NCBI RefSeq assembly: GCF_902829255.1
Contig: NZ_CADEPK010000006.1
Span: 1 to 37,126, forward strand
Length of the DNA: 37,126 bases
Direction: 5' to 3'
Source of the DNA: Metabacillus niabensis
GTDB taxonomy: Bacteria > Bacillota > Bacilli > Bacillales > Bacillaceae
The notes below the pieces were generated by a model, which saw only the letters and a program-made list of their open reading frames with translations, made no database searches and was not told the origin of the DNA. The position numbers and the translations under genes are program-made. Below, in pieces: positions 1 through 22,609 of this stretch (position 1 is the stretch's first letter; each line of letters starts with the position of its first letter).

Positions 1-112
1 ATATGGTTTAGCGTTAAATTCTTTTTTCCTATCATAGAATGAATAATTAAGAGGTTGAGAGCATGCACTTTTAATTTTAGTTCATTAGAGAAAAGTAATT
101 TCTTATCTAAGA

Positions 113-140
113 AAGAGCAAAGCTTTGTAGCAATGCTCTT
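113..140 (-). terminator. possible terminator of the transporter/ureohydrolase operon
   Basis: A 7-bp perfect inverted repeat (AAGAGCA / TGCTCTT) with a 14-nt loop lies directly downstream of the last gene of the long minus-strand operon. The T-tract after the stem is poor (TCTTAG), so efficiency is doubtful. Nothing else is seen in bases 1-145. Confidence 0.4.
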
Positions 141-145
141 CCTTT

Positions 146-754
146 CTATAGCACTTCAGGTAAGTAGTATTTATACATGTCAAGTGCATGACGATGATTC
201 TCTAATGTTTTAATTGTTTTCGGATTAGGCTTATCAAAAATAGTCGGATAATCCTTTTCAGCAAATTCTTCTCTTATCGGAAACGCTAAATATTCTTCAT
301 TTATTGAAAATTGGGCATTTACCCCTGGTTTATTTCCACGTGCATCTAAGCGAATCCAACGATTTAATGAGGTAAGGAAAACTCCGTTAAGAGCATGGAG
401 CGAGTAACCATCCTCTGGAGTATCAAAGATCATTAGTCTCTGATAACAAAAGCCTGTTGGAATACCAACTGATCGCAAAATCGCAGCCAACAAATTTGCC
501 TTTGCATAACAAATCCCTTCTTGATAGAAAAGGACGTCTGATGCTTTACAGGTTACACGATCGCTTTGGATATCCCAGCTATGTGATATTTGATCACGAA
601 CAAATTCATAGGCGATTTTAATTTTTTCAATCTCTGATAATTCCAGCTTAAACAGTTCTGCAACCTTCTTTTGAATCATCGGATGTGAATAATCGACAAC
701 ATTCAGTTCCTCTAAATAGTCTGCTAGTTTGTTAGACTCAGGGGTGAGCTTCAT
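146..754 (-). CDS. transglutaminase-like (papain-fold) domain protein
   Basis: A 202-residue cytosolic protein without signal peptide or membrane segment. The transglutaminase-like core is seen as Cys82 (in EGICYAKAN), His120 (in YSLHALNG) and Asp137 (in RLDARG), the family's Cys-His-Asp triad. Bacterial members are mostly proteases, amidases or transferases acting on amide bonds, so a peptidase or amidase role is an inference. It is the last gene of the operon with the ureohydrolases and the peptide-type ABC importer, 27 bp after the MFS gene. The site GGAG lies 10 nt before the ATG. It could release the guanidino substrate from a conjugate, but the sequence gives no direct evidence. Confidence 0.85.
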   Translation of the reverse strand: MKLTPESNKLADYLEELNVVDYSHPMIQKKVAELFKLELSEIEKIKIAYEFVRDQISHSWDIQSDRVTCKASDVLFYQEGICYAKANLLAAILRSVGIPTGFCYQRLMIFDTPEDGYSLHALNGVFLTSLNRWIRLDARGNKPGVNAQFSINEEYLAFPIREEFAEKDYPTIFDKPNPKTIKTLENHRHALDMYKYYLPEVL

Positions 755-781
755 TCTACAATCTCTCCTTCCAGTTCATTT

Positions 782-2026
782 TTAATACATTTCAAGATAT
801 TTTCGTTCATTTCTACTAAGTGTTCTTGATTTATAGTTAATCGCATGCAGTGAAAAGAAGATAATCGTTAAGATCGAAACTCCTGATATGCATACTAAAA
901 CCGAAACGATCCCGAAAAAATCATATAAATTCCCGATAATCAGCGGGCCAAACATTCTTCCTATATTTGCGAATCCACCTGACACACCTAAATAGAAGGG
1001 GGCATCACTGCCGGTTGTTTCTGAAAAATATAAAGGGATCGCAGGTAAAATTAACATTTCTCCAAGAGTGCAAACAATCATTCCTAAGAGAAAGAAATTG
1101 TAATGGTCATGGAAAAGCAATAAAAAGGTATATCCAATTGTACAAAAGATTGCAGCAGTAATTAATTGGGCATTAATAGATTTAGCAATCGTTCGTTTCA
1201 AAAATATGAGAATCGGCTGTCCAGCAAGTATAACAATCCCGTTGATTGTCCATAAAAAACTATATAAGGAAATTTCATAGCCTTGCTCTACTAAATAAGG
1301 TCCGACACCTGTCCCCCAAAAATTAAAGGTAATCCAATAAAAGCTTGCCCCAATTGATAGAAATAAATAAACCTTATAATCTTTTAATAGAGTGATAGGT
1401 GCATCATGACGCAAAATTTTTCCCGTATTTACTTGCTTCGTTTCTTCTGCCTCTGATTTCATAAATGTAAATAAAAAGCATGCAAAGATAATCGTAATCA
1501 CGCCTGTAACTACATACGTAAGCTGAAAGGATATCGCCGCCAGCAAGCCACCAGCCGCAGCACCAAATGCTAGACCAAGATTATTGCAAACATAGACAAT
1601 ATTAAACAAGCGTTTGCGAAATTCCTTCCAGCGGAAACCTATATAGGAATGAACCCCTGGCATTGTAATCCCATTCATCATCCCAAGTGCACACATCATC
1701 ACAATATAGAGATACCAATTTTCAATAAAGACTATTGATAGGATCGCTATCCCCGATGCAAGTGTCGACCCAACAATTAATTTTCTCGGACCTAGCCGGT
1801 AATAAAGTATTCCTCCGATAATCTCTCCAAAAATTCCAAACAATGATTGGAGTAAGATGACCATTCCTGCTTCGCCATATGATTTTCCTAATTCTGAGCT
1901 AACATATAAGGTGATCAATGGCCACATAAGGGCTTTTCCGCTTGAGTTAATAAAGCTAGCTAAAATAAAGACAAGCGCATCTTTCGGATACGCTTTAAAC
2001 ATATTCATTTTATTTAGTATATTCAT
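782..2026 (-). CDS. MFS transporter, 12-TM
   Basis: A 414-residue hydrophobic protein with about twelve predicted membrane segments in two halves, typical of major facilitator superfamily secondary transporters. The loop between helices 2 and 3 carries a degenerate MFS motif A (GGILYYRLGPRK, with the usual acidic residue replaced by Tyr). Helix 5 carries a glycine/alanine-rich stretch (NNLGLAFGAAAGG). It starts 17 bp after the DppC-like permease stop, inside the operon. A plausible role is export of a product or toxic analogue, or a second uptake route, but substrate and direction cannot be read. The Shine-Dalgarno is weak (GGGG, 7 nt before the ATG). Confidence 0.85.
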   Translation of the reverse strand: MNILNKMNMFKAYPKDALVFILASFINSSGKALMWPLITLYVSSELGKSYGEAGMVILLQSLFGIFGEIIGGILYYRLGPRKLIVGSTLASGIAILSIVFIENWYLYIVMMCALGMMNGITMPGVHSYIGFRWKEFRKRLFNIVYVCNNLGLAFGAAAGGLLAAISFQLTYVVTGVITIIFACFLFTFMKSEAEETKQVNTGKILRHDAPITLLKDYKVYLFLSIGASFYWITFNFWGTGVGPYLVEQGYEISLYSFLWTINGIVILAGQPILIFLKRTIAKSINAQLITAAIFCTIGYTFLLLFHDHYNFFLLGMIVCTLGEMLILPAIPLYFSETTGSDAPFYLGVSGGFANIGRMFGPLIIGNLYDFFGIVSVLVCISGVSILTIIFFSLHAINYKSRTLSRNERKYLEMY

Positions 2027-2043
2027 TTTAGAGCCCCATTTCT

Positions 2044-2967
2044 TTACTTAAAGCTTTTTGGATCTAACGCATCTCTCACTCCATCACCGATAAAATTGAT
2101 TGAAAGCACAGCTAATACAATCATGATTCCTGGTGGGATCCAAAGCCAAGGTTGATTTGTTAACGCCGTAATCGATTGGGCCGTTGTTAGCATATTCCCC
2201 CAGCTCGCTGAAGGTGGTTGAACGCCCATCCCTAAAAAGCTTAATGATGACTCTGCAATAATAGCTGACGCTGCTCCGAATGTAGCATTAACAAGGATAG
2301 GTGCGATTGTATTCGGCAAAATATGATGAAAGATGATTCTTGGTGAACGATAGCCTAATGCAACACCCGCCTTCACATAATCCTGTTCCTTTATAGAAAG
2401 GATGCTTGCTCTTACTAATCGAGCAACATATGGCCAGCCTAATATACCAAGCACTAGCATAATATTAAACAAGCCAGGACCGATAATTGTCACTAATACT
2501 AAGATGACCATTAAATATGGGAATGACATAAATACATCAATAAATCGGTTAATCACCATATCGACCCAACCACCAAAATAACCGGCAACCGCCCCAACAA
2601 TTGTCCCAATAATAATGTAAATCGCCACTGAACCAAGTCCGACAGCCAACGAAATTCTTGAGGCGAAAATTAATCTACTTAACACATCACGCCCCATTTG
2701 ATCAGTGCCTAATAAATGCTCTGGGGACGGTCCAGCATTGAACGTTCCGACAATTGCATTCGGGTCATATGGAGCTATTAGCGGTGCAAAAATTACCATT
2801 AAACATAATAATCCAAATATGAACGTCCCGACCATTGCCAGCTTATGCCTATAAAACTTCCGCAAAGTAGTCCTAAATAAACTTGAGCCTTTTTGAACTT
2901 CCTCGTTAGAAGTCATCAAGGTCTTATCTTCTAATGCTGTCCTTGCATCGACATTTATTGAAGACAT
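2044..2967 (-). CDS. ABC transporter permease, DppC/OppC family
   Basis: A 307-residue inner-membrane permease, the second channel subunit of a peptide/nickel/opine-type ABC importer. The N-terminal DppC-type cytoplasmic stretch is followed by one membrane helix, a periplasm-side segment containing GTDQMGRDVLSR, and a five-helix BPD_transp_1 domain. The EAA-like cytoplasmic loop (KAGVALGYRSPRIIFHHILPN) that contacts the ATPases is visible. The open frame extends 24 codons further upstream, but AGGTGG at good spacing selects the ATG at 2967 (MSSINVDAR). It follows the DppB-like gene by 20 bp. Confidence 0.93.
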   Translation of the reverse strand: MSSINVDARTALEDKTLMTSNEEVQKGSSLFRTTLRKFYRHKLAMVGTFIFGLLCLMVIFAPLIAPYDPNAIVGTFNAGPSPEHLLGTDQMGRDVLSRLIFASRISLAVGLGSVAIYIIIGTIVGAVAGYFGGWVDMVINRFIDVFMSFPYLMVILVLVTIIGPGLFNIMLVLGILGWPYVARLVRASILSIKEQDYVKAGVALGYRSPRIIFHHILPNTIAPILVNATFGAASAIIAESSLSFLGMGVQPPSASWGNMLTTAQSITALTNQPWLWIPPGIMIVLAVLSINFIGDGVRDALDPKSFK

Positions 2968-2987
2968 TTTATTACCACCTTTTCTAA

Positions 2988-3935
2988 TTAATGATATTTC
3001 ACACGCGGATCGACAACTGCATACATGACATCTGCCCAAATATTCGCAATTAAAACACTTACTGCAGCAATTAAATTGATTGCCATTAATGTTGGGTAAT
3101 CACGAGATAAAATCGATTGAATCGTTAATTGCCCCATTCCAGGCCATTGAAAGATCGTTTCCGTAATGACAGAACCGCCGATTAATAACGGGATATCCAT
3201 GCCGACAATTGTAATAATCGGAATTAACGCATTCTTTAATGCATGTTTATTAATGACAACAAATTCCTTTAACCCTTTAGAGCGAGCTGTTCGTAAAAAG
3301 TCCTGCCCGAGAACCTCTAATACGCTTGAGCGAACATATCTAACCATCCCTCCAGCAATCGCTGTTCCTAATGTTAAGGTTGGCAGAATTAAATGGAGCA
3401 ATAAATCACCAAAGCCTGACTGTCCTAGCGTATTCATGCCACCAGTCGGTAATACGCCCCAAACAACACCGAAAATATAGATTGCTCCTAAGCCGAAGAA
3501 GAAATTTGGAATTGAAACTCCTAGAAAGGCGCCGGTTGTTGAGAGATAATCAAGCCATGTGTATTGGCGAATCGCACTAAGAATCCCAATTGGAATCGCG
3601 ATTAAATAGGCAACGATGATTGAGCTAATCATGAGAAGCAATGTTGGACCTAGCTTATCTACTATCATTGTTGCTACCGGTTGAAATGATGTGAAAGAAG
3701 TTCCTAAATCACCTTGAAGCAAGCCCCACAACCATTTGACATATTGGATAAAAAACGGGTCATCCAAGCCTAGCATCTCTCGGCGGAGTTCACGGTCTGC
3801 TTCAGTCGCATTAGGATTTTGGGAAAGCTCGGCTGGATCACCAGGCGAAAAATAAATAAGGACGAAATTCAGTAAAGTAACCCCAAATAAAACAGGAATC
3901 GATATTAAAATTCTTCTTGTTAAATACTGGAACAT
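2988..3935 (-). CDS. ABC transporter permease, DppB/OppB family
   Basis: A 315-residue membrane permease, the first channel subunit of the importer. It has the characteristic N-terminal helix (LTRRILISIPVLFGVTLLNF), the conserved FSPGDPAE segment after it, and a cytoplasmic EAA loop (RTARSKGLKEFVVINKHALK) before the last helices. Length matches DppB/OppB. AAGGAGG lies 8 nt before the ATG. It lies 23 bp after the DppF-type ATPase gene and 20 bp before the DppC-type permease, so the cassette order is A-D-F-B-C. Confidence 0.94.
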   Translation of the reverse strand: MFQYLTRRILISIPVLFGVTLLNFVLIYFSPGDPAELSQNPNATEADRELRREMLGLDDPFFIQYVKWLWGLLQGDLGTSFTSFQPVATMIVDKLGPTLLLMISSIIVAYLIAIPIGILSAIRQYTWLDYLSTTGAFLGVSIPNFFFGLGAIYIFGVVWGVLPTGGMNTLGQSGFGDLLLHLILPTLTLGTAIAGGMVRYVRSSVLEVLGQDFLRTARSKGLKEFVVINKHALKNALIPIITIVGMDIPLLIGGSVITETIFQWPGMGQLTIQSILSRDYPTLMAINLIAAVSVLIANIWADVMYAVVDPRVKYH

Positions 3936-3958
3936 GTTATGACCTCCTTTTCTCCAAT

Positions 3959-4927
3959 TTAGTTATAGGGAAAATGACAGGCTACCGTATGCTCATTTCC
4001 TGCTAGCTTTGGTTCAACCTCCCGACAAAGCTTTTGCGCTAACGGACATCTAGTATGAAAGCGACATCCAGCTGGTGGATTAGCAGGATTCGGTACATCC
4101 CCCTCTAAAACGATTCTTTCTTTATTTCTTAAATGTGGATTTGGTGGTGGATATGCATCTAATAACGCTTTTGTATATGGATGCTTAGTTTTTTGGAAAA
4201 TGTCATTTGTTTTTCCGAATTCTACAATTTTCCCTAAATACATGACCGCAATTTTATCACTCATATACTTTACTGCCCCTAATCCGTGAGCAATGAACAA
4301 ATAGGTTAAGCCAAATTCCTTTTGCAAATCCTTCAACAAATTTAATATTTGCGCTTGAATCGATACATCTAATGCGGAAACTGGTTCATCACAAACAATA
4401 AATTTTGGATTTAAAATAAGAGCCCTTGCAATCCCAATTCTTTGTCTTTGCCCTCCTGAAAATTCATGTGGGTATTTATTAAGTTGATGTTTAGAAAGCC
4501 CAACAATTTGAATTAAGTCATGAATCTTTTTCTCCATTTCAGGACGACTAAGGTTTTCATGTACAATGAGAGGTTCAATGAGAATATCTCTAACCCTTTT
4601 GCGCGGATTTAACGATGAATAAGGATCCTGAAAAATAATTTGGATTTGATTTCGAATCTTTCTTAGCTCTGATTTAGAGATCTTTGCTAAATTCACATCA
4701 TTAAACAATATATTTCCCTGTGAAATGCTTTCTAATTGGATAATACTCCGACCAAGCGTTGATTTACCGCAGCCAGATTCGCCTACAAGACCAAGTGTCT
4801 CACCAGGATAAATTTGAAAGGAAACCTCGTCTACTGCCTTTACATGTGCAACCGTTTTTGACAATATCCCTCTTTTAATCGGATAGTATTTTTTTACATT
4901 TTCTACTTTTAATAAAGGACTATTCAA
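3959..4927 (-). CDS. ABC transporter ATP-binding protein, DppF/OppF family
   Basis: A cytoplasmic ATPase of the importer, about 322 residues. Walker A (GESGCGKST, about residues 49-57), the signature FSGGQRQR, Walker B (FIVCDEPVSALD) and the C-terminal oligopeptide-transporter motif with CRFHTRCPLA are all present. The longest frame begins at a TTG at 4936 that abuts AAGGGG. The TTG at 4927 (MNSPLLKVEN) has proper 9-nt spacing and is preferred. It pairs with the neighbouring DppD-type ATPase to form a heterodimer. Confidence 0.93.
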   Translation of the reverse strand: MNSPLLKVENVKKYYPIKRGILSKTVAHVKAVDEVSFQIYPGETLGLVGESGCGKSTLGRSIIQLESISQGNILFNDVNLAKISKSELRKIRNQIQIIFQDPYSSLNPRKRVRDILIEPLIVHENLSRPEMEKKIHDLIQIVGLSKHQLNKYPHEFSGGQRQRIGIARALILNPKFIVCDEPVSALDVSIQAQILNLLKDLQKEFGLTYLFIAHGLGAVKYMSDKIAVMYLGKIVEFGKTNDIFQKTKHPYTKALLDAYPPPNPHLRNKERIVLEGDVPNPANPPAGCRFHTRCPLAQKLCREVEPKLAGNEHTVACHFPYN

Positions 4928-4949
4928 ATGCAGCAACCCCTTTCCATCG

Positions 4950-5915
4950 TTAACTTACTGATAAGCAGCGCACCTTATGGTTTTCAGCGACAGACTTAAG
5001 AATTGGAGCTTCTGATTTGCAACGCTCTGTGGCTATTGGACATCTGTTATGATAGCGACATCCTGAAGGCATCTGGTAAAGAGATGGAACTGTCCCTTCA
5101 ATCGTTCGCAGCTTCTCATTTGGATCAATCTCTAAATGTGGAATTGAATCCATTAGCCCTTTTGTGTACGGGTGTTTCGGGTCATCAAATAGGGTGAACA
5201 CATCCGCTTCTTCAACGACCTGTCCTGCATACATGACGATGACCTTATCAGCCATCTCTGCCACAACCCCTAAATCATGTGTGATAAATAGAATTGAAGT
5301 GTTATAATCTTCCTTTAGCTTTTTCATTAATCTAAGAATTTGCGATTGAATGGTGACATCCAATGCTGTAGTTGGCTCATCAGCTATTAGCAGCTGTGGG
5401 TTGCACGATAATGCCATCGCAATCATTACCCTCTGTCTCATCCCACCTGATAGTGAATGAGGATATTGATTCATAATCTCATCTGGCCGTGAAATCCCTA
5501 CTTTCCGTAGCATATCTATCGCATATTTCCATGCTTCTTTTTTATTCATTTTCAAATGCATGAACAATGGCTCTAACATTTGGTTACCAATTGTATAGAC
5601 GGGATTTAACGATGTCATTGGCTCCTGAAAGATAATCGAAATATCCCTTCCACGTATATCACGCATTTCACTTTCAGTTAATTGTGCGATATCTCGATCT
5701 TTAAATTGGATGCTGCCATTTTTAATAAACCCATGCTTCCCTAATAATCGAATGATCGATAACGATGTAACACTTTTACCACAGCCAGATTCTCCAACGA
5801 TTGCAATTGTTTCACCAGAGGTTAGTGTAAAACTAACCTCATCAACTGAAACAACCTCTCCATTCTCTGTTAGAAATGCTGTTTTCAACCTATCTACCTC
5901 TAGTAATTTTTCCAT
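4950..5915 (-). CDS. ABC transporter ATP-binding protein, DppD/OppD family
   Basis: A 321-residue ATPase, partner of the DppF-type subunit. Walker A is GESGCGKSV (residues 41-49), the signature LSGGMRQR, Walker B LLIADEPTTALD and the switch histidine ITHDLG. The C-terminal cysteine-bearing oligo/dipeptide transporter motif (CRYHNRCPIATERC) is complete. GAGGTG lies 8 nt before the ATG. The gene starts 24 bp after the binding-protein stop. Confidence 0.94.
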   Translation of the reverse strand: MEKLLEVDRLKTAFLTENGEVVSVDEVSFTLTSGETIAIVGESGCGKSVTSLSIIRLLGKHGFIKNGSIQFKDRDIAQLTESEMRDIRGRDISIIFQEPMTSLNPVYTIGNQMLEPLFMHLKMNKKEAWKYAIDMLRKVGISRPDEIMNQYPHSLSGGMRQRVMIAMALSCNPQLLIADEPTTALDVTIQSQILRLMKKLKEDYNTSILFITHDLGVVAEMADKVIVMYAGQVVEEADVFTLFDDPKHPYTKGLMDSIPHLEIDPNEKLRTIEGTVPSLYQMPSGCRYHNRCPIATERCKSEAPILKSVAENHKVRCLSVS

Positions 5916-5939
5916 CTCCTTGTCACCTCACTTACATTC

Positions 5940-7589
5940 TCAATTTTTAAACTCCCATAAATGGGCGTTAAAATGTGGTGCATAAATCGTTCCGCCTCTT
6001 GCCTCTAAGTCTTTATGAATAGCAATTAAGTTATTATCTGAGAACAATGAAATAAGCGGTACTTCCTCCTGAATAATCCCTTGCAATTCACTGTAGATTG
6101 CCTTTCGTTTATTTTCATCGCTTTCAGCAATCCCCATTGCAAACAATTCATCAACTCTCTCATTCTTATATTGCATATCATTAAGAGCGCCATTTGATGT
6201 AAAGGTTACAGCTGGACCGTCCGGATCAACGATGCTGCCAAAGCTCATAATCATCATTTCAAAATCATGTGATACCGCTTTTTGAACGGTTGTGGCAAAA
6301 TCGTAGTTCGTAATTTTTACCTTAAGACCAACTTGCTGAAAGTATTGCTGCAAAATCGTACCAGCCATTTCTCTCGCTTGATCTCCTGTTGGAACAATTA
6401 ATTCTATTTCTTTATTAAAATCCCAGCCTATTTCTTCTAATAGTTCCTTCGCCTTTTCGGGGTTATACTCGTATTTTTTTACATTAGGGTCATAATAAGG
6501 ATGTGATGGAGTATACGGGCCATCAACGATATCACCATAACCTTTAATCAGGTCATTGATTAAAACCTCTTTATCAATCGCATAAGCTAGCGCTTGTCTA
6601 AAACGCTTATCAGGAAACACCTCTGTATTAAATTCCATATTGATATACCTGCGTACTGACTCCTCAGACGTTTTCATATGCTCCATTTTTTTCACCGTAT
6701 CCCATTCAAGAGCAGGAATGTTTCCCGTTCCCGCCTGTGCTGCATTCATATGAAGCTCACCTGTTTGTAATTGAGCAACTAAGTTTGCTGGCGGCATAAT
6801 TTTAATGTAAATTTCGTCAAGCTTCGGTTTCCCTTGGTAGTAATTTTCGTTGGCAACTAGATGTACATATTGATCTTTTGCATATTTTTCAAACTTAAAT
6901 GGTCCTGTAGTAACAGTAGGATTTTGCCAAAATGGATTTTGATTTAATTCCTCTGGCTTCACATCCTTTAATACGTGTTTTGGAACAATAAATAAATCTG
7001 ATAAACGTTCCAAAATTAAATTAGGGTCAACAGGATTTTTTGTTACGAATTGAACAGTCGTATCATCTATTGCTTTTACAGATGGTAACTCTGTGACACC
7101 TTCTGGGAGCTTCCCGTTTTCCCCTAAGCCATCAAATGCTGTAATATAGTTACCAACCGTTGTCAGGGTTTTTGGATTTGCGATTAAATTTATCGTGAAT
7201 ACAACGTCATCCGCAGTAAATGGAGTTCCATCAGTCCATTTCACATTATCCTTTAAGGTAATCGTAAATGTTTTACCATCCTCGCCAATTGTATATGATT
7301 CAGCTAATACATTTTCAAACTCTAATGGAGCTGTCATTTCAAATAACGTTTCAAACATAAAACCTGCAACATAATTGACACCATTTGAGCCTGATGCATC
7401 TGTATCAATTGGATTAAACATTAACGGCCCATTGCTCATTCCAATATTGAGCACTTTATCATTTGGAGCTTGAGCAGCATTCGTTGAACCATTTGCAGAT
7501 TCTGTTCCCCCTCCACTACAAGCAGCTAAAAGGACGAGCATTGCACATAATAAAATGGTTAAAAGTAGATTTTTTCGAAGCATCATCAT
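5940..7589 (-). CDS. extracellular substrate-binding lipoprotein, SBP_bac_5 (DppA/OppA) family
   Basis: A 549-residue lipoprotein that captures the ligand outside the membrane and delivers it to the DppBCDF-like importer. The signal peptide ends in a lipobox LAAC with Cys24 as lipidation site, followed by a Gly/Ser-rich linker. The mature part is a typical family 5 solute-binding fold. Family members bind peptides, nickel complexes, opines or other cationic compounds, so family alone does not fix the ligand. The start is the first of three ATG codons, with GGGGG 6 nt upstream. It follows the third ureohydrolase gene by 72 bp, a gap that holds a perfect palindrome. Confidence 0.93.
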   Translation of the reverse strand: MMMLRKNLLLTILLCAMLVLLAACSGGGTESANGSTNAAQAPNDKVLNIGMSNGPLMFNPIDTDASGSNGVNYVAGFMFETLFEMTAPLEFENVLAESYTIGEDGKTFTITLKDNVKWTDGTPFTADDVVFTINLIANPKTLTTVGNYITAFDGLGENGKLPEGVTELPSVKAIDDTTVQFVTKNPVDPNLILERLSDLFIVPKHVLKDVKPEELNQNPFWQNPTVTTGPFKFEKYAKDQYVHLVANENYYQGKPKLDEIYIKIMPPANLVAQLQTGELHMNAAQAGTGNIPALEWDTVKKMEHMKTSEESVRRYINMEFNTEVFPDKRFRQALAYAIDKEVLINDLIKGYGDIVDGPYTPSHPYYDPNVKKYEYNPEKAKELLEEIGWDFNKEIELIVPTGDQAREMAGTILQQYFQQVGLKVKITNYDFATTVQKAVSHDFEMMIMSFGSIVDPDGPAVTFTSNGALNDMQYKNERVDELFAMGIAESDENKRKAIYSELQGIIQEEVPLISLFSDNNLIAIHKDLEARGGTIYAPHFNAHLWEFKN

Positions 7590-7610
7590 CCATTACCCCC
7601 TTCTTAACAA

Positions 7611-7625
7611 GATTTGAATCAAATC
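7611..7625. promoter_or_regulatory. 15-bp perfect palindrome upstream of the binding-protein gene
   Basis: GATTTGA-A-TCAAATC, about 22 bp before the binding-protein start, in the only sizeable gap between the ureohydrolase and transporter halves of the operon. It could be an operator for an internal promoter or a small mRNA hairpin. Confidence 0.4.
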
Positions 7626-7661
7626 AGAAAAAATTATTCATTATGTGTGAAGCTCCATCTT

Positions 7662-8642
7662 TTACATCGAACTTATTTCCAATGGATTTTGAAGCTTAGC
7701 CTTCTTATTTTGCGCGATAATGGACAGTACTTGAAAGGTGATATTTGCAGCATTTAACGCTGTAATATGAGCAGGATCTCGATCTGGCAAAGTTTCGACG
7801 ATATCAAAACCAATCATATTGATTCCTGAAATTCCACGAATCATTTGATATGCTTCATAAGTTGTAAAGCCGCCTACCTCAGGTGTTCCTGTTCCCGGAG
7901 CAAAAACAGGGTCAAGGAAATCAACATCAAATGTTAAAAACACTGGTCTATCGCCGACTCTAGCTTTAATTAATTGTGTCAATTTAGAGATTTCCATTGC
8001 TTTTACATCATCTGTTGTTAATAATTCAAACCCCATATCTCGAGCAGGCTGATACGGATTTTTCGTTATCGATGTCCCGCGCATGCCAATTTGAATAGAA
8101 GAATACGGATCAACAATTCCTTCATCAACAGCTATACTAAACATTGTTCCATGGGAATATTTCTTTCGTGGATCAAGGCTTCTTCCAGTATCTGAATGGG
8201 AATCAAAATGGACGAGACTTATTGGACCGTATTTTTTTGCAGCTGCTCGTAAATGTGGAAGTGATATCGAATGATCGCCTCCGAGAAGAATCGGAATGAC
8301 GTTATGACGAAAAATTGGGGCTAACTGTTCTTCAATAGCTTCATAGGAATATTCAATATAGCCGGGATGAACAGTTAAATCACCGTAATCAACTCCGGAT
8401 AAATAGTCAAAAATATTCAGGCGATCCAAAGCAGGATTAATTCCTCTGATCCTTTGTGACATTTCCCGAATAGCAGACGGACCAAATCTTGTGCCGATTG
8501 CATAGCTAACACCTGTATCAAAAGGTACGCCAATTACTGCAAAATCAACATTTTCTAAATCGTCCTTCACATGTGGCAGGTGCATAAAGGTGCGAATTCC
8601 GGAAAAGCCTGGAACCCCGCGGCTAATTTCTGGTTTATACAT
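7662..8642 (-). CDS. ureohydrolase family protein A (agmatinase/guanidino-acid hydrolase type)
   Basis: A roughly 326-residue arginase/agmatinase-fold enzyme predicted to hydrolyse a guanidino group to urea and an amine with a dinuclear metal centre. Numbered from the ATG at 8642, the ligands are His124 (GGDHS), Asp147/His149/Asp151 (FDSHSD) and Asp239/Asp241 (FDVDFLDP). The substrate-loop His164 lies in the usual HGT context. The first frame ATG (8651) abuts AAAGG, and the homologous paralogue start supports 8642. It differs from copies B and C by Ser148 in DSHSD, Gly153 in place of Trp, and a divergent loop at about 190-203. It resembles agmatinase and 4-guanidinobutyrase, and the exact substrate is unknown. 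Confidence 0.9.
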   Translation of the reverse strand: MYKPEISRGVPGFSGIRTFMHLPHVKDDLENVDFAVIGVPFDTGVSYAIGTRFGPSAIREMSQRIRGINPALDRLNIFDYLSGVDYGDLTVHPGYIEYSYEAIEEQLAPIFRHNVIPILLGGDHSISLPHLRAAAKKYGPISLVHFDSHSDTGRSLDPRKKYSHGTMFSIAVDEGIVDPYSSIQIGMRGTSITKNPYQPARDMGFELLTTDDVKAMEISKLTQLIKARVGDRPVFLTFDVDFLDPVFAPGTGTPEVGGFTTYEAYQMIRGISGINMIGFDIVETLPDRDPAHITALNAANITFQVLSIIAQNKKAKLQNPLEISSM

Positions 8643-8770
8643 CATCATCATCCTTTACAAAGTTAGTTTCACAAAAATGGATATGTTGCACTTTTTATAT
8701 GGAAGCTCTTGAAAAATTTAAAATTTTCAGTAATATATAAATAGGTGTAAGTATTTTTAAGCAGCTAGCT

Positions 8771-9730
8771 TTATAGTTGTAAGGAAACTTCTAAACTTTT
8801 TTTCTTTGCAATAATTGAGAGTACTTGAAAGATAATGTTTGCTGCGTGCAGAGCAGTTAAGTTTGTTTGATCGCGATCTGGTAAGGTTTCGACGATATCA
8901 AAGCCGATAATATTGATTCCTGCGATTCCTCTTATCATTTGAATCGCTTCATAGGTTGTAAAACCACCCGCCTCAGGTGTCCCAGTTCCTGGAGCATAGA
9001 TTGGATCTAGAAAGTCTACATCAAATGTTAGGAACACAGGCTTCGTTCCAACACGATTTTTTACCTTTTCGCATAGCTCAATAATTGGTAGCTTCTTTAC
9101 ATCATCTGTTGATAATACTTCATATCCTAGCTCAATAGAGGATTCAAGATTAGGATTTGGTCCACTGCCTCTCATGCCCATTTGAATCGATGAATAAGGA
9201 TCAACAATCCCTTCATCTACCGCTAAGCTAAACATATTACCATGTGAATATTTTTTCCGAGGATCACTGCTTCTCCAAGTGTCTGAATGTGCATCAAAAT
9301 GAACTAAACTTACCGGTCCATATTTTTTTGCTGCCGCTCTTAAATGTGGCAATGAAATCGAATGATCTCCACCTAGTAAAATAGGAATAATATTTTTTTC
9401 AAAAATTGGTGTAAGCTGCTCTTCTATCGCTTCATAGGAATATTCGATATAACCTGGATGCACAAGTAAATCCCCGTAATCAATCCCTGACATGAATTCA
9501 AATATATCAATATCTAAAGCTGGATTTACTCCTCTTATTCTTTGCGACATTTCCCTTATTGCTGAAGGTCCAAAACGAGTTCCAACTGCATGACTGGCAC
9601 CTGTGTCAAACGGAACACCGATCACAGCAAAATCAACATTTTCTAAATCGTTTGTGATATATGGTAAATGCATAAATGTTCTTATTCCTGAGAAGCCAGG
9701 AACCTTGTATGTCGCTTGTGGTTTATACAT
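8771..9730 (-). CDS. ureohydrolase family protein B (agmatinase/guanidino-acid hydrolase type)
   Basis: A 319-residue paralogue of its two neighbours, with long identical stretches. Metal ligands are His123, Asp146, His148, Asp150, Asp237 and Asp239, all intact. It has Trp152 after DAHSDT and HGN (163-165) where classical agmatinases and copy A have HGT. AAAGGA sits 7 nt before the ATG, and the same AAAGGATGAT context precedes copy A. A 128-bp AT-rich gap separates it from copy A without a clear terminator, and 33 bp separate it from copy C. The three may form homo- or hetero-oligomers with different substrate preference, which is an inference. Confidence 0.9.
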   Translation of the reverse strand: MYKPQATYKVPGFSGIRTFMHLPYITNDLENVDFAVIGVPFDTGASHAVGTRFGPSAIREMSQRIRGVNPALDIDIFEFMSGIDYGDLLVHPGYIEYSYEAIEEQLTPIFEKNIIPILLGGDHSISLPHLRAAAKKYGPVSLVHFDAHSDTWRSSDPRKKYSHGNMFSLAVDEGIVDPYSSIQMGMRGSGPNPNLESSIELGYEVLSTDDVKKLPIIELCEKVKNRVGTKPVFLTFDVDFLDPIYAPGTGTPEAGGFTTYEAIQMIRGIAGINIIGFDIVETLPDRDQTNLTALHAANIIFQVLSIIAKKKSLEVSLQL

Positions 9731-9763
9731 AAAATCATCCTTTACTATTATTTTGTAAATCTA

Positions 9764-10723
9764 TTAAACGACCGCTTCTATCTCGGCCCTTTTTTTCATT
9801 GCAATAATTGATAAAACCTGGTGTGTAATGGTTGCAGCGTTTAATGCTGTTACTTTCGCCGGATCACGGTCTGGTAAAGTTTCGACAATATCAAAGCCAA
9901 TGATATTAATTCCACATATTCCTCTTATCATTTGCATTGCTTCATACGTTGTAAATCCGCCAACCTCTGGTGTCCCAGTACCTGGTGCATATACCGGATC
10001 TAGAAAATCAACATCAAATGTTAAAAATACTGGACGACTTTTTACCCTTTGCTTTACCTTTTCACATAATTCAGACACCGTTAATTTTTTCACATCATCT
10101 GTTGATAGCACCTCATACCCTAACGCAATAGATGATTCAAAATCTGGGTTCGGCCCTCCACCTCTCATTCCCATTTGAATCGATGTATGTGGGTCAATCA
10201 CTCCCTCATCAGCGCCAAGACTAAACATATTTGCATGAGAATATTTCTTTTTAGGGTCATCACTTCTCCACGTATCTGAATGTGCATCAAAATGTACCAA
10301 GCTTACCGGTCCATATTTCTTTGCCGCTGCTCTAATATGAGGCAATGAAACTGAATGATCTCCTCCTAATAGAATTGGGATAATCCCTTTTTCAAAAATT
10401 GGCTCTAGCTGTGCTTCAATTTCCTCATATGAATATTCAATATATCCCGGATGCACCGTTAAATCTCCATAATCGATGCCATTCATATATTTTGATAGAT
10501 CAATCATATTTAACGCTGGATTGATTGGCCGTAGCCTTTGTGACATCTCTCTTATAGCAGCTGGACCAAATCTAGTTCCTACTGCATAACCAGCACCTGT
10601 ATCAAACGGCACGCCAATTACTGCAAAATCAACATTTTCCAAATCATTCGTATGTGGCAATTTCATAAACGTTCTTATCCCAGCAAACGGTGGTTGTTGC
10701 TTCAAGATTGTCAACTCTCTCAT
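9764..10723 (-). CDS. ureohydrolase family protein C (agmatinase/guanidino-acid hydrolase type)
   Basis: A 319-residue enzyme, first gene of the minus-strand operon and closest to copy B. The metal ligands are complete (His123; Asp146/His148/Asp150; Asp237/Asp239). The substrate-loop motif is SHAN (His163, Ala164, Asn165) instead of SHGT, a change next to the active site that suggests altered specificity. The ATG at 10723 directly abuts AAGGAG; the TTG at 10714 has better 9-nt spacing and may be the real start, removing three residues. It is transcribed divergently from the MarR gene, across a 223-bp region with a sigma-A-like promoter and inverted repeats. Confidence 0.9.
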   Translation of the reverse strand: MRELTILKQQPPFAGIRTFMKLPHTNDLENVDFAVIGVPFDTGAGYAVGTRFGPAAIREMSQRLRPINPALNMIDLSKYMNGIDYGDLTVHPGYIEYSYEEIEAQLEPIFEKGIIPILLGGDHSVSLPHIRAAAKKYGPVSLVHFDAHSDTWRSDDPKKKYSHANMFSLGADEGVIDPHTSIQMGMRGGGPNPDFESSIALGYEVLSTDDVKKLTVSELCEKVKQRVKSRPVFLTFDVDFLDPVYAPGTGTPEVGGFTTYEAMQMIRGICGINIIGFDIVETLPDRDPAKVTALNAATITHQVLSIIAMKKRAEIEAVV

Positions 10724-10762
10724 CTCCTTAATCTGATTATTTGTAACATTCTGAAAATTATC

Positions 10763-10791
10763 TTTATAAGTATGTTGCTAACTTATATCAA
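10763..10791 (-). promoter_or_regulatory. predicted sigma-A promoter of the ureohydrolase/transporter operon
   Basis: On the minus strand, TTGATA is followed by a 17-bp spacer and TATAAA, about 40 bp before the first ureohydrolase start. This is the best promoter match in the divergent intergenic region. Confidence 0.65.
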
Positions 10792-10828
10792 TAATTTACA
10801 ATCTTGTTTCCCCTTTGTCTCTCATATT

Positions 10829-10843
10829 GTCATATAATATCAC
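10829..10843. promoter_or_regulatory. imperfect 15-bp palindrome, candidate MarR operator
   Basis: GTCATATAATATCAC matches its own reverse complement at 12 of 14 non-central positions. It lies upstream of the operon promoter and shares the ATCAC half-site with the repeat near the marR start. Confidence 0.4.
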
Positions 10844-10853
10844 GATGTTTTTG

Positions 10854-10865
10854 TTGCATTTGCAA
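10854..10865. promoter_or_regulatory. inverted repeat TTGCA-TT-TGCAA
   Basis: A perfect 5-bp inverted repeat with a 2-bp centre, in the middle of the divergent region. It is a candidate regulator site. Confidence 0.35.
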
Positions 10866-10897
10866 TATTTTTTCGTTAAACTACTGATCGAATGTTA

Positions 10898-10915
10898 ATC
10901 ACTTCCAATTGTGAT
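10898..10915. promoter_or_regulatory. inverted repeat ATCAC-N8-GTGAT upstream of marR
   Basis: Perfect 5-bp arms, extendable to 7 of 8 matching bases per arm (TTAATCAC / GTGATAAA). It ends 31 bp before the marR ATG and overlaps its -10-like GATAAAAT, the position expected for autorepression. Confidence 0.5.
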
Positions 10916-10946
10916 AAAATAGATAAAAAATAGGGAGTCAAATTCT

Positions 10947-11399
10947 ATGAAGCATATTCTTAGAGAAATTGGCATGATTGCAAGATGCCTTGAATCAATT
11001 GCAAATATTGAATTTAAAGACTTAAATTTAAATAAAGGACAATTTTTATATTTAGTAAGAATTTGCGAGAATCCTGGAATTATCCAAGAAAAAGTAGCTG
11101 AAATGATTAAAGTCGATCGAACAACAGCTGCTAGAGCAATCAAAAAATTAGAGCAACAAGGATTTATCGTCAAGGTAAGTGATGAGGAAAATAAGAAAAT
11201 TAAAAAGCTATATGCTACTGAAAAAGGGATGCAGCTTAATCCTTTCTTTGAAAGAGAATTAGAACACTCTTCAAATGTCATTCTCAAAGATTTTACAGAC
11301 GATGACAAAGAAAAGATCTACCAATATTTAGTGAAAATGAGAAAGAATATTGAGGCAGATTGGGAATATGTAAAACGGGGGAATAAAAGGGATTATTAA
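10947..11399 (+). CDS. MarR-family transcriptional regulator
   Basis: A 150-residue winged-helix regulator. The central winged helix runs through KGQFLYLVRICENPGI, IQEKVAEMIKVDRTTAARAIKKLEQQGFI (recognition helix at about residues 60-73) and a charged wing (SDEENKKIKKLYAT). Flanking helices would form the dimer interface. GGGAG lies 9 nt before the ATG. It is divergent from the ureohydrolase/transporter operon, the usual arrangement for a local repressor released by a substrate or product, so it is the probable regulator of that operon. The long inverted-repeat terminator downstream makes it monocistronic. Confidence 0.9.
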   Translation: MKHILREIGMIARCLESIANIEFKDLNLNKGQFLYLVRICENPGIIQEKVAEMIKVDRTTAARAIKKLEQQGFIVKVSDEENKKIKKLYATEKGMQLNPFFERELEHSSNVILKDFTDDDKEKIYQYLVKMRKNIEADWEYVKRGNKRDY

Positions 11400-12647: not shown

Positions 12648-13364
12648 TTATAATCGACAAACTTGTATTGGACAATCCTCACATTTACAAATACTACGCA
12701 GTCCTTCCAGATTTAGAATTGTAATATATCCTTTATCATATGCTACAAGTCCATCTTTTCTATATTGATTTATGATCCGTGTCACTGTTTCTCTAGGGGT
12801 TCCGATTAAACAGGCGATTTCATCGTGCGTAAACTTTTTGGTAATATCCCATTTTTCATCGTTTTTGATACCATACGTGTTTGTCATACGAATGAGGACA
12901 GATGCCAATGCACCGTTTTTCCCAAAAAACATTAAATCTCTTAGCTTTGTTTGTGTTAAAAGCTGGGAATAACTTACCCATTTTGTAAATTCAATTGAAA
13001 ACTCACGATTACGCCACAAAAGCATTTCTATCTCTTGTTTTTCAATCACACCAATAACAGAATCTTCAATTGCTTTCGCATTTTCCATAGCTCTCCCATC
13101 ATCATGAGACATGTAATCTCCGAACATATCATCTTTCGTATAATAATTTAAGGTTAACACTTTACCTTCATCATTACTTTTATAAAGAGTGATCGTTCCT
13201 TTTACTAAATAAAAAAGCTTATTTACCTTTTCTCCTTCAGAATATAAATATTCACCAGCTCTTAGGTGAATTGTATTCATTCTTTGTTTTAATTCATCCA
13301 TGCTGTTTTTTGATAAGAAATGGGTATTCACTACTTTTTCGTTCGCTTTCACTTCTGCTATCAT
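12648..13364 (-). CDS. fnr: Fnr, oxygen-sensing Crp/Fnr-family regulator
   Basis: A 238-residue protein with an N-terminal cyclic-nucleotide-fold domain, dimerisation helix and C-terminal HTH_Crp (HDEIACLIGTPRETVTRIINQY, about 180-201). The C-terminus carries Cys226, Cys228, Cys231 and Cys236. The spacing C-x2-C-x4-C of the last three matches the Bacillus-type Fnr [4Fe-4S] ligands, and Asp143 in TKLRDLMFFGKNGAL corresponds to the aspartate ligand known in Bacillus subtilis Fnr. It is therefore an oxygen-labile activator of anaerobic genes binding TGTGA-N6-TCACA. One perfect such site lies upstream of the nearby two-component operon, and a weaker one upstream of fnr itself. Confidence 0.93.
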   Translation of the reverse strand: MIAEVKANEKVVNTHFLSKNSMDELKQRMNTIHLRAGEYLYSEGEKVNKLFYLVKGTITLYKSNDEGKVLTLNYYTKDDMFGDYMSHDDGRAMENAKAIEDSVIGVIEKQEIEMLLWRNREFSIEFTKWVSYSQLLTQTKLRDLMFFGKNGALASVLIRMTNTYGIKNDEKWDITKKFTHDEIACLIGTPRETVTRIINQYRKDGLVAYDKGYITILNLEGLRSICKCEDCPIQVCRL

Positions 13365-19705: not shown

Positions 19706-21109
19706 TTACCCATGAATTGGAATGATAATTGAAAACTTTGTTCCCTTATTTTGTGTACTTTCAATGAAAATTTCACCATTATGAAGCTCTACTAATCGCT
19801 TTACGATCGATAACCCTAAACCAAATTCACCAAATTGATTACTTGTCCTTGAAATATCAGCTTTATAAAATCTTCGCCAAATAAACTCAATTTCCTGCTT
19901 ATCCATTCCAATTCCCGTATCCTCAATTTCAATCATCGTAACATCATCCAATTGTTTTCCCCGGAGCCACACCGTTCCTTCATTTGTAAATTGGATGCTG
20001 TTTTTTGTTATATTAATTAAAATTTGGATAAGACGATCATAGTCTGCATAAACGATACTTTTTTCATCAACATCTAATTTTAATTCAATTCCTTTATTCT
20101 CTGCTTGTTGGTATAAATGATCTTTAATGATCTCTAAAACCTCACTAAGAAGAATGTTCTCTCTATTAAGCTTGACTTGGTTTGAGCGAATTCGTTCATA
20201 ATCTAAGTTTTCATTCACAAGCCGTATAAGTCTTCTTGTTTCCTGACTTATTAATTGAACCCCTTTTTCCTTTTCAGCCTCTGGAATCATATCGTTTTTT
20301 AAGCCTTCAATTAAACCGCTTATCGTCGTTAACGGCGTCCGCATTTCATGAGATACATCTGCAATAAACTGACGACGTCGTTTTTCAAGACTATCAATTT
20401 CTTCATTTTGCGCCCTTAATTTAGTGATCATTTCATTAAAGTCATTGGCCATTTCACCAATTTCATCAAAATTCGTTGAAGGAATATCGACATCATAGTT
20501 TCCTTGAGCAATTTTCGATGTCGCCTTACGAATTTTTTCGATCCGATTCACATGAACCTTAGAAAGCAACCAACTAAGTAAAAAGGAAACTGATAAGGCA
20601 ATAAGGACGGTATATAACAAATAGCGATTTAATTCACTAATCATTTCCCTTGTGCCGCTAATCGGTGAAATGAGTAAAATTCCTCCCGCCATTTCACCGC
20701 GATTAATGTATGGAATCGCAACTAATGATACCTCTTGGTCCGCCCATTTAATATTATGCTTTGTGACGACCTTTTCCCCGCTTGTAAGCTTTCTCCAATC
20801 CTCCTCAGTTACACTTGCTATTGGTGAATTAGGAGCGATTGAATAAACAATTCGTCCACTTCGATCAAATATACTAAAAAACACGTCTTGTGAGCTTAAG
20901 ACATGCTGATATTGTGCAAGAACATATTCCTCACCAATCTGCTCAAAGTCATATAATATGTTTTCACCATACTTAGTTAAATCAGAGACTTTATTTTCAT
21001 AAACAAGATTTTCGACATAATGAGTAAATAATAGGCTCAATATTAAAAACGCAATGATGATGATGCTAATATGACTTAAAATAAGCTGATAAATATATTT
21101 AATTCTCAT
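19706..21109 (-). CDS. HAMP-domain sensor histidine kinase
   Basis: About 467 residues (from MRIKYIYQLIL). Two membrane helices (about 10-29 and 163-183) flank an extracytoplasmic sensing domain of about 130 residues, then HAMP (about 184-236), HisKA with His254 (FIADVSHEMRTPL) and HATPase with N-box ITKNSIQ, G1 DTGIGMD and G2 FGLGLSI. The frame is open to a GTG at 21145; ATG codons at 21127 and 21109 are alternatives, and 21109, overlapping the regulator's end by 11 bp, is chosen though its Shine-Dalgarno is weak. It pairs with the upstream OmpR-type regulator. Its neighbour suggests envelope or secretion stress sensing, an inference. Confidence 0.92.
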   Translation of the reverse strand: MRIKYIYQLILSHISIIIIAFLILSLLFTHYVENLVYENKVSDLTKYGENILYDFEQIGEEYVLAQYQHVLSSQDVFFSIFDRSGRIVYSIAPNSPIASVTEEDWRKLTSGEKVVTKHNIKWADQEVSLVAIPYINRGEMAGGILLISPISGTREMISELNRYLLYTVLIALSVSFLLSWLLSKVHVNRIEKIRKATSKIAQGNYDVDIPSTNFDEIGEMANDFNEMITKLRAQNEEIDSLEKRRRQFIADVSHEMRTPLTTISGLIEGLKNDMIPEAEKEKGVQLISQETRRLIRLVNENLDYERIRSNQVKLNRENILLSEVLEIIKDHLYQQAENKGIELKLDVDEKSIVYADYDRLIQILINITKNSIQFTNEGTVWLRGKQLDDVTMIEIEDTGIGMDKQEIEFIWRRFYKADISRTSNQFGEFGLGLSIVKRLVELHNGEIFIESTQNKGTKFSIIIPIHG

Positions 21110-21803
21110 CTTCTTTAACCGACTCATCAAACTTATAACCAACACCCCAAACAGTATGGAAAAATGGTTGCGAAGGTGTTTCGATTTTTTTCCGTAATCG
21201 TTTTATATGAACATCAACGGTTCGTTCATCTCCATAAAATTGATAGCCCCAAACTCTCTCTAAAAGCTGATCCCTTGTGAAGACTTGCCGTGGATTTTTT
21301 AAAAAATAATATAGCAAATCGAACTCTTTTGGCGTGAGGTTTTCGATTTTCTTTCCTTGTAAAAATACCTCTCTCGTTGTCTTGCTTATTTTAAAAAACT
21401 CTGTTTCTAAAAAAGAGGACTGTTGCTTCTGCTCCTGATCAGCTGCTTGGTAACGGCGGGTGACTGCTTTAATTCTAGCCATCAGTGCCAATGGACTAAA
21501 TGGCTTTGTGACATAATCATCTGCTCCCATTTCAAGACCTAGCACTTGCTCAGACTCGCTATCCTTTGCCGTAAGGATAATAATTGGCACTGTGCTTTCC
21601 TCTCTAATTTTGCGACAGAGTGTTACCCCATCCATTCCAGGAAGCATCCAATCTAAAATGATTAAATCCCATTCCGCTTCCTTAAATCTTTTATATCCTT
21701 CAAGACCATCCTGAACAAATTCCCCGCTAATCTCTTCCTTCGAAAAAAACATTTCAATCATTGAGCACACACTTAAATTATCTTCAACAACTAATACTTT
21801 CAT
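21099..21803 (-). CDS. OmpR/PhoB-family response regulator
   Basis: A 234-residue protein with a receiver domain (acidic pocket EDN at 7-9, phospho-acceptor Asp51 in LIILDWMLPG, Lys in TKPFSP) and a C-terminal winged helix (LTPKEFDLLYYFLKNP ... RTVDVHIKRLRKKI ... GVGYKF). AGGTGG lies 3 nt before the ATG. It overlaps the start of its kinase, so the pair is translationally coupled. An 11-bp palindrome is found 19 bp upstream of its start. Confidence 0.95.
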   Translation of the reverse strand: MKVLVVEDNLSVCSMIEMFFSKEEISGEFVQDGLEGYKRFKEAEWDLIILDWMLPGMDGVTLCRKIREESTVPIIILTAKDSESEQVLGLEMGADDYVTKPFSPLALMARIKAVTRRYQAADQEQKQQSSFLETEFFKISKTTREVFLQGKKIENLTPKEFDLLYYFLKNPRQVFTRDQLLERVWGYQFYGDERTVDVHIKRLRKKIETPSQPFFHTVWGVGYKFDESVKEDEN

Positions 21804-22150: not shown

Positions 22151-22221
22151 GTCTCAGTCTAATACAACATAGATTATTACTAGACATAACGGTAATCAAG
22201 TAATCTATATTTTTCCACACA

Positions 22222-22249
22222 AAAAAGACCCCATAAATGGAGTCTTTTT
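22222..22249 (-). terminator. rho-independent terminator of the first cold-shock gene
   Basis: AAAAAGACCCC-ATAAAT-GGAGTCTTTTT, an 11-bp stem with one mismatch. A/T runs on both sides allow function in either direction. Confidence 0.85.
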
Positions 22250-22276
22250 ATAAGAGCTGCTTATGCAGCGTTAAGC

Positions 22277-22474
22277 TTATTTTTGTACGTTAGCAGCTTG
22301 TGGTCCACGAGCTCCTTGCTCAACTTCAAAAGTTACTGTTTGGCCTTCTTCTAAAGTTTTGAAGCCTTCGCCTTGGATAGCAGAGAAGTGTACGAATACA
22401 TCGTCTTGACCTTCAACTTCGATAAATCCAAAACCTTTTTCTGAGTTAAACCATTTTACTTTACCTTCTAACAT
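22277..22474 (-). CDS. CspA-family cold-shock protein (copy 1)
   Basis: A 65-residue single-strand nucleic-acid-binding OB-fold protein and RNA chaperone. RNP1 (KGFGFIEV) and RNP2 (DVFVHFSAI) are intact. The frame extends 12 codons upstream, but AGGAGG at normal spacing and the conserved [10 protein letters not shown] start select the ATG at 22474. The mRNA has a leader of about 128 nt, as is typical for cold-shock genes. A second copy with very similar sequence lies at 36520. Confidence 0.97.
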
Positions 22475-22488
22475 TGCTTTTCCTCCTG

Positions 22489-22509
22489 TGTGGAATGAAT
22501 ATGTCCACA
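22489..22509 (-). promoter_or_regulatory. leader hairpin next to the csp ribosome binding site
   Basis: TGTGGA / TCCACA, a 6-bp stem with a 9-nt loop, immediately upstream of AGGAGG. It could modulate translation with temperature. The second csp gene has an analogous stem. Confidence 0.45.
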
Positions 22510-22609
22510 TGTATTACTATTCTTGCTAGACAACGATCGTTTTAAGAGGAGGAAACTTTTGAAGCAACTTCCATCTAACATCCTTATCCGAACAAAAATA
22601 ATTACTTTC

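Follow-up and report, generated by a model that had tools for sequence, protein, structure and literature searches.

Ten codirectional minus-strand genes (10723-146) of Metabacillus niabensis code for three ureohydrolases (UH1, UH2, and UH3), a family 5 solute-binding protein (SBP), OppD, OppF, OppB, OppC, an MFS carrier, and a transglutaminase-like protein (TG); they lie in the 37,126-nucleotide stretch of contig NZ_CADEPK010000006.1 that we analyzed (the window), base 1 of which is the first base of the contig. We are moderately confident that they form a dedicated scavenging operon, which would import an acidic, perhaps acylated, guanidino compound and release urea from it. The family 5 SBP, two permeases, and two oligo_HPY ATPases (Pfam) make up an Opp/Dpp ABC importer, and, judged from sequence comparison, SBP with OppB, OppC, OppD, and OppF would import a guanidino compound that has an acidic end and may be acylated or peptide-like; UH1-UH3 would hydrolyze its guanidino group to urea and an amine (an amino acid). 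With some substrates TG may cleave an amide bond, the MFS carrier may carry the substrate or export a product, and the urea would go to a urease encoded elsewhere in the genome. A divergent MarR-family regulator would gate the operon here, and an ANTAR antiterminator would gate the same module in Paenibacillus-type genomes. An earlier, sequence-only reading described ten tightly spaced codirectional genes with a divergent MarR gene, and gene calls, Pfam matches, and intergenic gaps of 13-119 bp (33, 119, 72, 24, 13, 23, 20, 17, and 27 bp in order from UH1 to TG) bear this out; from the spacing, a single transcript for all ten genes is likely.

A genome-collection scan identified 52 loci encoding UH relatives, seven of them in Paenibacillus (64-66% identity). 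In whole-genome searches with UH1 at a cut of 1e-110, 2 of 80 genomes in the window's family pass, namely the window's own assembly (G000) and G058, with an enzyme of 55% identity beside another transporter; four of 398 pass in the class, with the module only in G000 and G307, and with a sodium symporter-like neighbor in G251 and G357. Seven of 394 pass in the family of G307 (with scoring of at most five UH candidates per genome), a family that we take to be Paenibacillaceae, given stretches of 71-73% DNA identity between its loci and Paenibacillus loci. We examined 14 further genomes, seven from Paenibacillus and seven from the family of G307, and a DNA comparison of the 14 loci found no duplicates, the closest pair being 92-95% identical. 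All 14 encode a UH, SBP, OppD, OppF, OppB, OppC, and MFS carrier, and all keep the order of the last five; as the genomes were selected by a close UH, this count speaks for the partner genes and not for the enzyme. An SBP at least 53% identical is present in exactly the 7 of 394 genomes that carry the UH (three SBP candidates per genome were scored, and the next best is 44%), and the UH-module SBPs form one clade (100/99). Nothing else ties importer and hydrolases together as cleanly as this matching distribution does, and the co-occurrence of the parts in relatives, whose absence would have refuted the sequence-only reading, is confirmed. Its set of parts stands in part: UH, importer, and MFS carrier are constant, but neither TG, found in 6 of 14 related modules, nor MarR, which an ANTAR-type gene replaces in the other 14, is general.

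It is extremely improbable that hydrolases and transporter are chance neighbors belonging to unrelated units. Such a reading could point to two loci (L009 and L011) in which the transporter genes run divergently from those of UH and SBP and are transcribed apart, and to G833 (the genome of L013), in which the module enzyme UH-A lies 20 kb away from the rest of the module, but we reject it in view of the co-occurrence in 14 of 14 genomes, the same 7 of 394 genomes, and a leader sequence common to both units. The arrangement is not chance, as it recurs in 14 further genomes. A joint transcript, also part of the earlier proposal, does not extend to all relatives, since L009 and L011 have separate hydrolase and transporter units, yet both units carry the same leader. 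We favor a dedicated scavenging operon because of this co-occurrence, the shared distribution, and the occurrence of the leader, among the candidate sites scored, only at the module.

The ANTAR-type gene lies beside the UH genes in all 14 related modules (checked with Pfam in L007 and L009), with the proteins of L009 and L011 only 32-33% identical to that of L007. Leaders were sought upstream of UH genes, and also upstream of OppD in L009 and L011. The pattern GGCAANRRRGCC, which was derived from the first leaders seen and thereby fixes A at the first loop position, matched 26 of 27 regions upstream of UH or separate OppD genes; the one without a match belongs to L098, at the second gene of an adjacent UH pair. 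In 24 leader folds a strong hairpin consumes the 3′ arm of a small six-base-loop hairpin, and 21 of 26 leaders were flagged as having a hairpin with a run of four or more T after it; most of the folds have a predicted upstream hairpin, and covariation by RNAalifold is confined to a four-pair hairpin, with no double change. Passages of PMC3369931 and PMC8934654 describe ANTAR targets as six-base loops with A1 and G4, and the related modules resemble the ANTAR regulons treated there (eut, nas, ami) in combining an ANTAR protein with a six-base-loop hairpin that overlaps a terminator-like hairpin. They differ in their cargo of hydrolase plus importer, in having a clear six-base first loop in only 8 of 24 folds, and in position 4 of the second loop, which is G in 16 of 26 leaders and A in 10. 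An ANTAR-type attenuator is thus likely in the related modules, though not necessarily one with a strict double six-base loop. The A4 form is found in ten of eleven UH-A leaders (L007, L008, L010, L013, L085, and L093-L097), departing from the published A1/G4 rule, and UH-B leaders have G; the A4 and G4 leaders may differ in how strongly they exert control. A Streptomyces agmatinase mRNA with an ANTAR-target RNA is reported in a passage of PMC8164766.

A leader model built from the 26 leaders found 27 sites in the 14 genomes, every one of them at the module (two per genome in 13, and one in G792), when 150 of about 1,750-3,830 candidates per genome were scored. Because 26 of the 27 sites match by construction, the informative results are the 27th, which exposed the displaced module half in G833, and the lack of sites elsewhere. 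The same model gave no match in the window or, among the 150 candidates scored, in G000, and we reject ANTAR control of the window operon; the two lineages appear to run the same module under different switches, MarR in one and ANTAR in the other.

Membership of UH1-UH3 in the arginase/agmatinase superfamily follows from their PF00491 domain and His/Asp metal ligands, and in alignments the metal ligands and catalytic His are intact in all three and in the other module enzymes. In GbuA, R72 caps the neighboring active site and could meet an acid group, according to a passage of PMC9772407. Of 28 module enzymes, 27, including UH1-UH3, have an equivalent Arg, as do GbuA and GpuA; it is absent from the solved agmatinases SpeB, 4dz4, and 1wog (A, A, and P), which argues for an acidic substrate. 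Among 43 other alignment rows, this position is R in 29 (one of them an arginase of doubtful alignment), K in 4, another residue in 8, and a gap in 2.

Agmatine scavenging, with the UHs as ordinary agmatinases and an importer taking agmatine or agmatine conjugates, is unlikely. UH1-UH3 do score above the cut-off of the NCBIfam agmatinase equivalog TIGR01230 (200.6, 200.6, and 197.8 versus 174.3), and the W beside a metal ligand in UH1 and UH2 is shared with 4dz4, SpeB having Y; but all three fall below the cut-off of the NCBIfam agmatinase subfamily NF002564 (291.6, 292.7, and 288.5 versus 302), they carry the capping Arg that the solved agmatinases lack, SpeB and 4dz4 sit on a separate branch of the tree (100/97) with which UH1-UH3 do not group, and another PF00491 gene in G000, at C29, lies beside a spermidine-synthase-like gene. 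Returning to an acidic guanidino substrate, the TIGR01230 scores count against it too, as do several other observations. The capping Arg is missing from one module enzyme (L098_6944), and PAH, which acts on an acid, has H at this position. The second residue of the loop past the last metal Asp, which we take to be the counterpart of Asn130 of arginase, a carboxylate contact, is N in GbuA, GpuA, and PAH but W or G in module enzymes, and is Y, W, and T in SpeB, 4dz4, and 1wog. GbuA, GpuA, and PAH form another branch (89/92, with long branches), apart from UH1-UH3; the structure model of SBP is unusable (mean pLDDT 47.8); and urease, the proposed recipient of the urea, is present in 105 of 197 genomes of G307's family and so is common anyway, for which reason we set it aside as specific evidence.

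The same loop divides the paralogs. Module enzymes are without the Tyr-Phe/Trp-Gly motif of most relatives, and at the second loop position UH1, UH2, and UH-A carry W, whereas UH3, UH-B, and the single-copy enzymes carry G. W and G forms occur together in 12 of 13 genomes with at least two UH genes, the exception being G792, whose locus L098 encodes G forms only, two of them. L098 and the single UH of L009 and L011 lead us to reject an obligate W/G heteromer across all lineages. The module enzymes form one clade (100/99) and the three window enzymes a subclade of it (100/98), and a tree built without the loop region again separates the two lineages. One ancient W/G duplication common to both lineages is rejected by the AU test (p 1.3e-7 for the W clade, 5e-6 for the G clade), for which the W and G groups were named after the residues had been seen. 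The W and G forms would thus have arisen, or been exchanged, in parallel in two lineages, and gene conversion within each genome is a possible source of the pattern.

Two characterized groups of ureohydrolases invite comparison. GbuA and GpuA of Pseudomonas aeruginosa (3nio, 3nip) are the best-scoring solved relatives and have the metal ligands and capping Arg in common with the module enzymes, but they occupy a separate branch of the tree and have Asn in the loop where the UH enzymes have W or G. GpuA has its own permease; the module described here adds tandem paralogs and an Opp importer. Metformin/dimethylguanidine hydrolase, according to passages of PMC11399263, is likewise encoded by tandem ureohydrolase genes in one operon, with a beta subunit that has lost the metal site, subunits that are 33% identical, and hypA/hypB present; UH1-UH3, in contrast, all keep the metal site, and UH2 and UH3 share 77% and 69% identity, respectively, with UH1.

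Beyond the module, UH relatives are encoded at 52 loci (45 from the collection scan and seven from G307's family), nine of which were read. All nine have a transporter-like gene within the stretch displayed, of varied kinds, including a sodium symporter and NitT-like ABC, NCS1-like, amino-acid ABC, and TRAP transporters (identified by eye except in L086). The closest enzyme outside the module in the tree is from L088, a locus of the window's own genus, in which two different ureohydrolases, a class III aminotransferase, and a NitT-like ABC transporter lie in one gene run (L088:4388-10414); this looks like another guanidino system. L018 (7458-10921) and L027 (9968-16033) each have two unlike ureohydrolases (33-34% and 45-50% identical to UH1/UH3), adjoining an NCS1-like or amino-acid ABC transporter.

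Relatives of the importer also occur without ureohydrolases, and we read ten of these, comprising all four further matches in the window's family and the six best in G307's family (the best 6 of 45 further matches listed beyond the UH genomes). Their OppD and OppF are 57-71% and their SBP 40-49% identical, and M20-family amidohydrolase genes lie beside all ten (L133-L142) in place of ureohydrolases; four of the ten loci also hold an amidohydrolase and a hydantoinase A gene. An M20 query gave no match in the 14 module loci or the window. The simplest reading is a single importer family that handles amide-bonded amino-acid derivatives, with ureohydrolases having taken the place of M20 hydrolases in the module, and TG could be the amide-opening enzyme, though it is not constant. 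C82, H120, and D137 of TG are invariant in six of six aligned sequences; its structure model (mean pLDDT 57.8; best Foldseek E 4e-4) resembles transglutaminase-like cysteine proteases at low confidence, and a sequence search for a solved relative gave a best E of only 0.79. The M20 genes at all ten sister importers and the TG gene in the operon would also suit peptide or N-acyl-amino-acid scavenging, with the UHs acting only on arginine side chains after import; we consider this rather unlikely, as no M20 match lies in the module loci or the window, and as the UHs are the constant enzymes and TG is in only 6 of 14 relatives. We prefer an acidic, perhaps acylated, guanidino substrate because of the M20 genes beside the UH-free importers and because the L088 enzymes adjoin a class III aminotransferase, which fits an amino acid as the product. 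The peptide-anchoring Asp of SBP, for which we assume the position in DppA and aligned AppA only, is not used as evidence.

Tentatively, we can imagine a more specific and new guanidino catabolic route: ureohydrolases would have been fitted to an importer family whose usual partners are M20 enzymes, the substrate would be an amide-joined guanidino acid opened by TG, and the W and G paralogs would work as a pair, either in a mixed hexamer with all sites active or as two enzymes for consecutive or differently sized substrates.

Urease is encoded in G000 outside the window, beside genes that we read as urease accessory genes (by eye except UreC) and behind a branched-chain-type ABC transporter read by eye as a urea importer. 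All 15 genomes (the 14 module genomes and G000) have a urease, and the genus g55, which contributes six of the seven module genomes from G307's family, is absent among the 20 of 92 urease misses that were listed. G000 has two further arginase-family genes, one at C29 and one at C146, the latter followed by an aminotransferase-like gene (neighbors of both by eye); these have contexts of their own, which leaves UH1-UH3 free for another task. Both the urease and the placement of these other genes lead us to favor a scavenging operon that releases urea.

The GdmH operon of Synechocystis, as portrayed in passages of PMC12186494, likewise couples a ureohydrolase and an ABC importer, with urea passing to urease, and has a guanidine-I riboswitch and Ni-delivery proteins. 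Neither of the latter is seen in the window, and the importer here is Opp-type. The window has no guanidine riboswitch, and we therefore reject riboswitch control of the operon; a Pfam scan of 21 window proteins likewise turned up no nickel chaperone. The earlier statement that the window has no urease, Ni accessory gene, or guanidine riboswitch holds, yet G000 has, elsewhere, both the urease and one guanidine-I riboswitch, which precedes the gene of a 113-residue protein read by eye as an SMR exporter.

Utilization of free guanidine by a GdmH-like route is very unlikely; the argument for it comes from Paenibacillus ginsengihumi, in which the module directly adjoins a guanidine-I riboswitch operon (L131:13324-18506, L009:1515-3263) encoding UAAP1, UAAP2, urea/guanidine carboxylase, and allophanate hydrolase. 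Allophanate hydrolase is encoded in 10 of 15 genomes, G000 not among them, but among the genes of the 14 module genomes only that of P. ginsengihumi sits at the module, the others lying away from it; no guanidine riboswitch was found in the module loci scanned (L007, L011, L012, L130, and L132). UH3, moreover, scores 238 bits with GbuA versus 161 with chain 7esr, which has the same sequence as 7oi1, presumably the GdmH structure. Dedicated uptake and breakdown of guanidino compounds, the core of the sequence-only reading, thus has strong comparative support, with agmatine and free guanidine, two of the substrates it had suggested, now less likely.

The features of the operon and its flanks are given in Table 1. 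We corrected the start of OppC to the ATG at 2967, in place of a longer TTG open reading frame. The operon probably ends inside the window, at the hairpin 3′ of TG, which lies past the TG stop codon and is not among the calls of a general terminator scan; promoter and terminator scans of the window gave counts no higher than shuffles (43 versus 47.3 and 5 versus 7.4). As a guess, the imperfect palindrome in the divergent control region would be the MarR operator.

Table 1. Coordinates of the ureohydrolase-importer operon and associated features in the window
Feature	Coordinates	Strand	Observations
UH1, agmatinase-family ureohydrolase, first gene of the operon	9764..10723	-	PF00491, E 9e-82; loop DTWRS; metal ligands, catalytic His, and capping Arg intact
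UH2, ureohydrolase	8771..9730	-	PF00491; loop DTWRS; ligands intact
UH3, ureohydrolase	7662..8651	-	PF00491; loop DTGRS (G replaces W); ligands intact
SBP, family 5 solute-binding protein of the importer	5940..7589	-	PF00496, E 3e-88; lipobox-like N-terminus
OppD-type ATPase	4950..5915	-	ABC_tran and oligo_HPY
OppF-type ATPase	3959..4936	-	ABC_tran and oligo_HPY
OppB-type permease	2988..3935	-	BPD_transp_1
OppC-type permease	2044..2967	-	BPD_transp_1 and OppC_N; ATG start with Shine-Dalgarno-like sequence upstream
MFS carrier	782..2026	-	PF07690
TG, transglutaminase-like cysteine hydrolase	146..754	-	PF01841
MarR-family regulator, divergent	10947..11399	+	PF01047
Hairpin past the TG gene, a possible terminator whose T-run is poor	88..150	-	-21.6 kcal/mol; z -4.75; equalled by 0 of 200 shuffles
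Divergent control region	10724..10946	.	Imperfect palindrome at 10752-10800 (inverted repeat)

Other parts of the window code for a Crp/Fnr-type regulator (12648-13364, minus strand) with a cysteine-rich C-terminus, CKCEDCPIQVC, which we liken to the iron-sulfur Fnr of Bacillus, and for a 1050-residue MMPL-family transporter (22712-25864, minus strand). A two-component system (19706-21803) is near the MMPL gene, with a cold-shock-protein-like open reading frame (22277-22510) in between; this overlaps a match to the Rfam cspA thermoregulator (22219-22597, minus strand; 78.9 versus a cut-off of 78), and the coding sequence may supply part of the score.

Searches of the openly accessible literature for the combination of hydrolase and importer, and for ANTAR and guanidine routes, found no paper on such a module. 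A ureohydrolase with a dedicated importer is known in kind; the exchanged switches and the parallel paralog split, as we read them, are unusual. The module is a rare, conserved set in Paenibacillus strains for which a precise parts list is now available, and many genes annotated as agmatinase may have another function. Should the substrate prove to be an acylated guanidino acid, the operon would point to a nutrient pool tapped by bacteria, on which we found no paper. The ANTAR leader would serve as an inducible reporter for ligand discovery, and the apparent parallel W/G split would be a natural experiment on the determinants of ureohydrolase specificity.

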